Shown here: positions 62,195 to 64,000 of the stretch, piece by piece
Numbering within the stretch: position 1 is the first letter of the stretch
Layout of the letters: each line of letters starts with the position of its first letter
From: Paenibacillus sp. FSL R5-0912
Lineage (GTDB): Bacteria; Bacillota; Bacilli; Paenibacillales; Paenibacillaceae
Direction of reading: 5' to 3'
DNA: 64,000 bases
Assembly (NCBI RefSeq): GCF_000758605.1
Contig: NZ_CP009282.1
Coordinates: 4,898,001 to 4,962,000 of the forward strand
The notes under the pieces: generated by a model
What the model was told of the DNA's origin: nothing
Databases searched by the model: none
Seen by the model: the letters and a program-made list of their open reading frames with translations, nothing else
Program-made: the position numbers and the translations under genes

Positions 62195-62782
62195 TTACAC
62201 CCTCTCAGCCTGCTCTTCAAATTCAGGCTCATAGAAATAGGATTCGAGCTGGAGCTTCACACTGCTCCTGGCGCGGAACAATAGTGATTTCACGGAGCTG
62301 ACACTCTGATCCAGAATCACTGCAATTTCCTGATAATCCATCTGATCATATTCACGCAGAATGAGCGCAGAACGCTGCTTCTCCGGGAGATTGTTAATGG
62401 CTTCACGGACCAGATTCATCCGTTCTTTACGTAATGCCGCCTGTTCCGGGGCAACGTCAAGCGGTGCCACAGGAGTATAACCGCTCTCTTCAAGCGATAC
62501 ATTTCCGGCACGGTTCTTGCGCAGCTCACTCAGCACCGTATTACGGGCAATAGTGTACAGCCAAGTAGAGAAAGAAGCATCCACTTCACGGAACGAATGA
62601 AGACTCCGGAAAGCCTTGTAGAAGGTCTCAGAACAAAGGTCTTCGGCAATCAGCTCCATATGGGAGTTCTTAAGCATATGATACACAAACGCCAATATTT
62701 TGCGTTGATAACGTCGCATCAATTCCGAGTATAATTCTGTATCTCCTTGCTTGATAAGCTGGATCAACTGGGAATCCGTCAT
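62195..62782 (-). CDS. ECF-type RNA polymerase sigma factor
   Basis: 195 residues. Region 2 (ELYSELMRRYQRKILAFVYHMLKNSHMELIAEDLCSETFYKAFRSLHSFREVDASFSTWLYTIARNTVLSELRK) and region 4 (INNLPEKQRSALILREYDQMDYQEIAVILDQSVSSVKSLLFRARSSVKLQL). The 19-residue stretch after region 2 (AGNVSLEESGYTPVAPLDV) is the usual linker. GAGGAGG lies 13 bases before the ATG. Its upstream region carries an ECF-type site like those before the two amidase genes, implying autoregulation and a cell-wall regulon. It is not identifiable as a specific B. subtilis sigma from sequence alone. Confidence 0.93.
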   Translation of the reverse strand: MTDSQLIQLIKQGDTELYSELMRRYQRKILAFVYHMLKNSHMELIAEDLCSETFYKAFRSLHSFREVDASFSTWLYTIARNTVLSELRKNRAGNVSLEESGYTPVAPLDVAPEQAALRKERMNLVREAINNLPEKQRSALILREYDQMDYQEIAVILDQSVSSVKSLLFRARSSVKLQLESYFYEPEFEEQAERV

Positions 62783-62866: not shown

Positions 62867-63146
62867 GGCATTGCTACAAATTCGTACAAATAAATGAAAT
62901 ACTTCCTATGTATATTCAACCAGCCGTTAATTAAGGCATACTGTATGTAAATACAGAAAGAAATTCGCATCTTTACAAATTTCTAATACTGTTCAGATAG
63001 GCATATGGCTCCCTATACTTGGAAGAAATCTATAAACATACTTAACCCAGTATAGCATACATTCTAACAGGATGACATTAATAGACTTTTAGATTCAGCG
63101 GGAAGTCGAATATTGAAAGCGGTATTATTAATGTTTGAGAAAGGGG

Positions 63147-63175
63147 TTGACAGAATGTAACCGTATACATATAAT
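63147..63175 (+). promoter_or_regulatory. Consensus sigma-A promoter of a predicted small RNA
   Basis: TTGACA (63147-63152), exactly 17 bp, TATAAT (63170-63175): a perfect match to the vegetative consensus. Transcription would start near 63182. Confidence 0.85.
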
Positions 63176-63181
63176 AAAAGT

Positions 63182-63270
63182 ACAGTATGGTTTCTCTCCA
63201 CTCCTATCCAAACACTGCACGGTTCCAATACATTGTGAACTGTAACCGCTTATTATGTAAGCGGTCTTTT
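63182..63270 (+). ncRNA. Predicted small non-coding RNA
   Basis: Between a perfect promoter and the terminator ACCGCTTA-TTATG-TAAGCGGT plus T7 (about 63244-63270) lies about 88 nt. No ribosome site is present and the only ATG runs through the terminator, so it is unlikely to encode a peptide. The 5' half has a pyrimidine-rich single-stranded stretch (TTTCTCTCCACTCCTATCC) that could pair with purine-rich ribosome sites, as RoxS/RsaE-type RNAs do. No known RNA family is recognised. Confidence 0.7.
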
Positions 63271-63439
63271 TTTGTCCATTTTTACGAACAATTGGATAAT
63301 TTATAGGCGCATTATACTCCCCTAACCTAATCATCCGAAACGCAGTCCGTAACGACACAGATACGCTCCGCGAAATCTTCCGCTCTGCGTCATTGACCGT
63401 TGAGAGTGACCGCAACCTTTCATAACCTGCCCGTCAGTG

Positions 63440-63590
63440 AGGCGACTGAGAATCCGTTATTTGAGTAAAATCAGCGAATTTGCCGGTTAATCGGACTCAG
63501 AATCGCTTAATTGACCTGAAAAGTGTATTACAGTATATTTTAGGAATATAGGAATCTCAGTCCGTTTCAGGATATATGGATCTGGGGAGG
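63440..63590. repeat. Period-50 intergenic repeats (second locus)
   Basis: GACTGAGAATCCGTTATTTGA (starts 63444; core GACTGAG) and GACTCAGAATCGCTTAATTG (starts 63494) lie 50 bp apart; GAATCTCAGTCCGTTTCAG follows at about 63552 in the reverse sense. The same core and period occur at 36.37-36.56 kb. The stretch 63271-63440 shows no gene. Confidence 0.7.
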
Positions 63591-63745: not shown

Positions 63746-64000
63746 CTACACATATACCGTATAATCATTCTGCTGCAATACAACCTTGGCCCGCTCCATA
63801 TCATGCTCCTGGCGGAACGACAGGCGCATGATCCCGGGAACATCCTCCCGGCTCTCAATAATCTGCACGTTGCTAAGGTTGATGCCCTGGTCGCCAAGCT
63901 CTGTGGTGATGCGTCCGATAATCCCGGGATGATCGGGGACATCAATATGAAGGTCGAACAACGGGACAATCATTCCTTTGCGGCGCTCAGGCAACTGGCT
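63746..64000 (-). CDS. tyrA: Prephenate dehydrogenase, C-terminal ACT domain (partial)
   Basis: The last 84 codons of a gene that enters from the right edge. It reads SQLPERRKGMIVPLFDLHID, then an ACT domain: VPDHPGIIGRITTELGDQGINLSNVQIIESREDVPGIMRLSF. The LPxRKKG linker plus ACT domain is the C-terminal end of Bacillus-type TyrA, where tyrosine acts as allosteric inhibitor. Gene order (tyrA upstream of the ypiB-ypiF-qcr block) agrees with B. subtilis. An in-frame TTG at 63994 is the Leu of the linker, not a start. Confidence 0.85.
   Translation of the reverse strand, partial: SQLPERRKGMIVPLFDLHIDVPDHPGIIGRITTELGDQGINLSNVQIIESREDVPGIMRLSFRQEHDMERAKVVLQQNDYTVYV

Follow-up and report, generated by a model that had tools for sequence, protein, structure and literature searches.

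A candidate trans-acting small RNA of the Bacilli with a nearly invariant CU-rich loop and CcpA-type operators

We describe, in a 64-kb stretch of Paenibacillus DNA (the window, meaning the whole stretch that was analysed), a gene that probably encodes an ancient trans-acting small RNA (sRNA) of the Bacilli, repressed by CcpA in the lineage of the window and pairing through a CU-rich loop with ribosome-binding sites (RBSs). The reality of this stand-alone gene is strongly supported by comparative genomics, which bears out the proposal of the initial annotation that a promoter of its own, a CU-rich segment of the anti-Shine-Dalgarno type and a terminator make up a small RNA. Comparison of the homologous loci delimits the transcription unit and brings out its conservation, its loop, its synteny and its cre sites. 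That annotation did not notice that a cre site lies in the promoter spacer, that the element is ultraconserved throughout the class and syntenic, or that the CU-rich segment falls in a predicted hairpin loop.

A stand-alone transcription unit

The initial annotation reported a perfect vegetative promoter and, about 70 bp further, a strong terminator, lying alone between an ECF sigma operon and tyrA. All of these are in place:

62195..62782, - strand: ECF sigma factor gene, syntenic neighbour, upstream of the sRNA in the window
63147..63152, + strand: -35 hexamer TTGACA, exact consensus; TTGACA in 48 of 74 diverse homologues
63170..63175, + strand: -10 hexamer TATAAT, exact consensus; TATAAT in 54 of 74 diverse homologues
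63182..63274, + strand: predicted sRNA of ~90 nt, from promoter spacing and terminator; 5' end inferred (63180-63184)
63245..63273, + strand: intrinsic terminator, with a 9-bp stem (63245-63265) and T7 (63267-63273)
63746..64000, - strand: 3' end of tyrA (ACT domain), syntenic neighbour, downstream of the sRNA in the window and convergent

The promoter, TTGACA-N17-TATAAT (63147-63175), is the only exact consensus sigma-A promoter on either strand of the window, where 0.03 are expected from shuffles. The terminator begins ~70 bp past the -10 box, and the whole unit, promoter through terminator, covers 63147-63273. Mechanically called open reading frames overlap the sRNA (e.g., 63187-63306, 39 aa), but they lack both a ribosome site and coding conservation. 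The locus has what is generally expected of an sRNA gene, namely an independent promoter and an intrinsic terminator with no conserved open reading frame, from which we infer that it is transcribed. Between the sRNA and tyrA there is also a second promoter-like site, TTGACC-17-TATATT, at 63511-63539.

In the window, the ECF sigma gene upstream of the sRNA is accompanied by an anti-sigma gene. Across the loci analysed, tyrA is near the sRNA in 242 of 286. In most loci it lies upstream on the same strand, either directly or behind aroA, with ypiA-like or ECF genes next. The syntenic position of the unit is after hisC/tyrA/aroA; in the clade of the window and a few others, the unit is inverted relative to tyrA from promoter to terminator. 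The positional orthology of the locus supports vertical descent, and the inversion of the unit as a block indicates that it is self-contained. In family f38, two genomes (G133 and G247, loci L388 and L360) carry the gene twice, and the second copy also has a cre-like site; at L388, this copy is just upstream of clpP.

Conservation across the class Bacilli

Used as a DNA query, positions 63130-63290 matched 99 of 101 relatives, and the promoter-core part alone matched 209 of the 399 sampled genomes of the class Bacilli. A sequence model identified the element in 216 of these 399 genomes at E<=0.1, the majority of them far below 1e-5. The sample of the phylum outside the class gave near-chance fragments only (best match, E = 2e-4). 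Taking the search of relatives and the class search with the sequence model together, about 40 family labels have a match at E<=1e-3. Among the matches listed, an exact core 20-mer occurs in Paenibacillus, Cohnella, Saccharibacillus, Brevibacillus, Aneurinibacillus, Ammoniphilus, Shouchella, Alteribacillus, Halalkalibacter, Fictibacillus, Pseudalkalibacillus, Geomicrobium, Marinococcus, Melghirimyces, Thermoactinomyces, and Caldalkalibacillus.

The conserved core and the predicted structures of the RNA are as follows:

63184..63209, + strand: ultraconserved 26-nt block AGTATGGTTTCTCTCCACTCCTATCC, ~99% mean identity across the class
63183..63217, + strand: hairpin 1 (predicted), CAGU/ACUG and UGG/CCA stems closing the CU-rich loop
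63191..63207, + strand: 17-nt CU-rich loop UUUCUCUCCACUCCUAU, the presumed seed, mostly unpaired in folding
63219..63243, + strand: hairpin 2, found in most homologues, with variable sequence

The block is exact in 226 of the 257 loci where it was found, counts that are biased by similarity-based retrieval. Among 30 loci of the genus, the 26-nt core is 100% identical versus 27% for the ungapped upstream flank, and among 40 loci from outside the Paenibacillales the values are 98.9% and 26%, the latter being the level of random identity; similarity retrieval somewhat inflates the core identity, and mismatch-tolerant searches nonetheless recovered diverged members. The initial annotation had suggested comparing the conservation of the sRNA with that of its flanks, and the result (~99% versus ~26%) is the opposite of the pattern it had named as contrary to a gene. 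We regard this conservation as the decisive support for the reality of the feature. The diverged families f17, f24, f29, f38, f46/f47, and f59 retain only the 16-nt loop TTTCTCTCCACTCCTA, and several of the sequences inspected from them still show a cre-like site as well as a promoter of the TTGACA type and a terminator. Unlike the stem of hairpin 1, the terminator is repeatedly rebuilt among the homologues: 68 of the 74 diverse members have a hairpin directly against the T-run, and 46 different ends of its stem occur.

The CU-rich stretch that had been noted in the 5' half is located at 63191-63207, and its first 16 nt (63191-63206) persist in the most distant homologues. When 213 distinct homologues were folded, the closing pairs GG and CC flanked the loop and most of its positions were unpaired with probabilities of 0.8-0.98; the CCA at 63198-63200 has a lower mean (~0.65) because of a competing small hairpin. 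The stem columns of hairpin 1 are nearly invariant (82% of cells pair versus <=50% when slid), and we looked for compensatory changes across the homologues and found none, so this hairpin is compatible with the data but not proven by covariation. The whole predicted sRNA folds at -23.5 kcal/mol (z = -3.8 versus shuffles). Most of this signal comes from the terminator and hairpin 2, and z is -1.3 once the terminator is left out.

Some loci contain complements of the loop in their own vicinity. In L064, L065, and L084 (Caldalkalibacillus-like and family f43), a GGAGTGGAGAG-like sequence in the promoter spacer is complementary to the locus's own loop, so that the two form an inverted repeat in the DNA that spans the -10 box. 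In Marinococcus L175, ATAGGAGAGAAAC, a near-complement of the loop, lies just 5' of the -35 box, ~45 nt upstream of the core.

CcpA-type operators

The operator of CcpA, cre, has the consensus TGWNANCGNTNWCA. Near the sRNA, we identified one site of this type and a possible further one:

63156..63169, + strand: cre-like CcpA operator TGTAACCGTATACA in the promoter spacer, matching 9 of the 10 specified positions
63114..63127, + strand: TGAAAGCGGTATTA, lying 5' of the -35 box and possibly another cre-like site

Among the 74 diverse members, which are representatives with dissimilar 3' halves, 57 (77%) have a cre-like match of >=9/10 within the unit, versus 1.2% of dinucleotide shuffles. The position varies. 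Most Paenibacillales homologues have the site in the promoter spacer, as in the window, in many relatives one overlaps the -35 box or immediately precedes it, family f17 has it right after the -35 box, and Cohnella-like species have it also upstream of this box. In Brevibacillus and several alkaliphiles it is found inside the terminator stem. This recurrence at positions that differ per lineage is the pattern expected from selection for one regulator. The site is mostly absent from families f22, f28, and f41, and members in Thermoactinomycetaceae and Aneurinibacillus lack it, which means that control by CcpA is not universal. A cre operator at the promoter and kept in relatives, as expected of a member of the CcpA regulon, is thus what we find outside some families, and we infer that CcpA binds there. 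A site between the -35 and -10 boxes implies repression when preferred sugars are present, and the sRNA would then be made once such sugars run out.

Search for targets

The complement of the loop, AUAGGAGUGGAGAGAAA, corresponds to a Shine-Dalgarno sequence plus spacer, and the AUGG adjoining the loop is complementary to CCAU at the start codon. Together, these pairings make a block of translation the simplest action. Prediction of targets with the CU-rich seed, as advised in the initial annotation, succeeded in part: it revealed lineage-specific RBS complementarity (acdA of Aneurinibacillus), whereas a class-wide target sought by RBS complementarity was not found.

The best evidence comes from Aneurinibacillus, a lineage lacking cre, where the predicted pairing of the loop with the RBSs of two tandem acyl-CoA dehydrogenase genes lies 3.5-3.8 standard deviations beyond composition controls (mean z of -3.8 and -3.6). 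Only the second gene is independent evidence, since the first was picked for its own match. We rejected acdA/mmgC-like acyl-CoA dehydrogenases as a general target, as the signal outside Aneurinibacillus is weak after composition control (p = 0.04 and 0.7). We also rejected galE, for which RBS pairing is strong in two families only and the mean does not differ from the background. The window's own genome has a 16-of-17 complement of the loop before an LplB-like sugar-ABC permease gene, a candidate that was discarded because its counterpart is absent from the other genomes of the genus that were sampled.

Overall, 17-nt near-complements of the loop are no commoner than in the control, and the mean affinity of the loop for RBSs is only slightly better than that of shuffles, with 16 of 100 shuffles equally good. 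The RBS and start-codon pattern GGAGRGAAACCATG has 75 sites versus 6 control matches in 310 genomes, although genome size and the usual composition of RBSs confound this difference; its sites are mostly in genomes bearing the sRNA, and the genes concerned are diverse. Sugar ABC permeases, PMT-like glycosyltransferases, galE, and Cof-type HAD phosphatases are leads from single lineages, without a matched control. For the Cof-type HAD phosphatases, RBSs complementary to the loop occur at L395, L547, L621, L626, and L629, under four family labels, a complementarity that resembles the SgrS-yigL pair of enteric bacteria. Separately, seven Brevibacillus genomes (L539-L540, L542-L546) have an ABC-transporter ATPase gene with the RBS AGGAGTGGAGAGA, which may be a lineage-specific target.

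Relation to known small RNAs

The initial annotation had recognised no known family, and at the curated thresholds of Rfam 15 neither the window nor 20 homologous loci matched one; the window has no match at E<=10 either. The RsaOG and RsaE families are in Rfam. Strings of the core sequence did not occur in the searchable open papers, and an unnamed transcript could stand in supplements, transcriptome tables, or subscription papers. Among open papers, our search for a conserved CcpA-linked sRNA returned only RosA and RsaI.

According to PMC8216469, RsaI (RsaOG) of Staphylococcus is a stand-alone, CcpA-regulated sRNA that binds mRNAs through a C-rich region and other sRNAs through G-rich regions; it is reported to be restricted to this genus. 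On that description it resembles the present sRNA in being stand-alone and of CcpA type, its C-rich region being akin to the CU-rich loop. However, the sRNA of the window has no RsaOG match at E<=10, and Staphylococcus-sized genomes gave chance-level matches only. RosA of B. subtilis (~229 nt) is a stand-alone sRNA under repression by CcpA; it contains G-rich sponge regions but nothing C-rich (PMC8216469). It shares with the present sRNA the stand-alone arrangement and a cre site near the transcription start, recognised here from sequence, but the present RNA is much shorter (~80-90 nt), has a CU-rich loop, and lacks RosA's G-rich sRNA-binding regions. RoxS/RsaE, FsrA, and CsfG, which are C-rich sRNAs of Firmicutes, also expose pyrimidine-rich stretches that presumably pair with ribosome sites, and have a role in the control of central metabolism. 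They differ in sequence and control, and the present sRNA has no Rfam match; according to PMC8216469, RoxS is under Rex/ResD, FsrA under Fur, and CsfG under sigma F/G. The kind of molecule is known, a CcpA-controlled, pyrimidine-rich sRNA of Firmicutes. The family itself appears to be new, and is unusual in how widely it occurs and how little it varies.

Proposed mechanism and alternatives

In the lineage of the window, CcpA with its co-repressor would occupy the cre between the -35 and -10 boxes and keep RNA polymerase off while preferred sugars are abundant. Its release would yield an RNA of ~90 nt ending at its own terminator, whose 5' part would form a hairpin presenting the 17-nt loop, complementary to an AGGAG/GGAG ribosome site and the spacer that follows. 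With the neighbouring AUGG, pairing could extend to CCAU at the start codon, and it would mainly block translation of a set of mRNAs specific to each lineage.

The nearly invariant 26-nt block would seem to exceed the apparent needs of such variable RBS targets. One could suppose instead that the block serves chiefly to bind a single conserved partner, either another RNA or an RNA-binding protein, and that the complementarity to RBSs is secondary. Its invariance over 26 nt across the class goes beyond an ordinary seed, no constant mRNA target was found, and Saccharibacillus retains most of the block despite a differing 3' arm. However, the loop is predicted to be accessible and is shaped like the complement of a ribosome site and spacer, RBS pairing is strong in at least one lineage, and no partner was identified, and we find this explanation rather unlikely. 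That the sRNA works by sponging one or several further sRNAs, as RosA does in B. subtilis, is very improbable: the two look alike in their control, RosA being CcpA-repressed and stand-alone, but the sponge regions of RosA are G-rich and bind C-rich sRNAs (PMC8216469), the opposite of a CU-rich sRNA, which would need a G-rich RNA partner, and none was found.

We give even less credit to a cis-acting element, be it the 5' leader of a gene or an antisense or terminator element for tyrA. This gene is indeed a constant neighbour, convergent in the window, but nearly all members have their own terminator, in most other loci the unit follows tyrA on the same strand or stands 1.5 kb off behind aroA, and the second copy in family f38 is beside clpP. 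Finally, we rejected as hardly credible a dual-function RNA or a tiny peptide (MVSLHSYP...) translated almost without a leader. The idea is suggested by an AUG that most members have ~5 nt from the presumed 5' end, but a ribosome site is missing, conservation is as strict at third codon positions as at the others, the frame enters the terminator in many members, and the distant f17 members keep the loop while the ATG context is gone.

Conclusions

To our knowledge, conserved trans-acting sRNAs of Firmicutes are few and mostly of narrow range. The candidate described here stands out for a loop that hardly varies over about 40 families of the Bacilli, for its single ancestral locus, and for operators that are mostly of the CcpA type. 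It raises the question of what holds a 26-nt segment of RNA constant while the visible mRNA partners vary. As a tentative idea, on which we would not insist, the block might be a Bacilli-wide riboregulatory hub that ordinary seed pairing would not explain, addressing either a conserved protein or RNA partner or many RBS and start-codon sites at once, and coupling carbon catabolite control to translation. If our preferred reading of a CcpA-repressed, RBS-pairing sRNA is true, this RNA would belong to the core machinery that controls carbon use in Paenibacillus, Brevibacillus, Cohnella, Halalkalibacter, Fictibacillus, and others.
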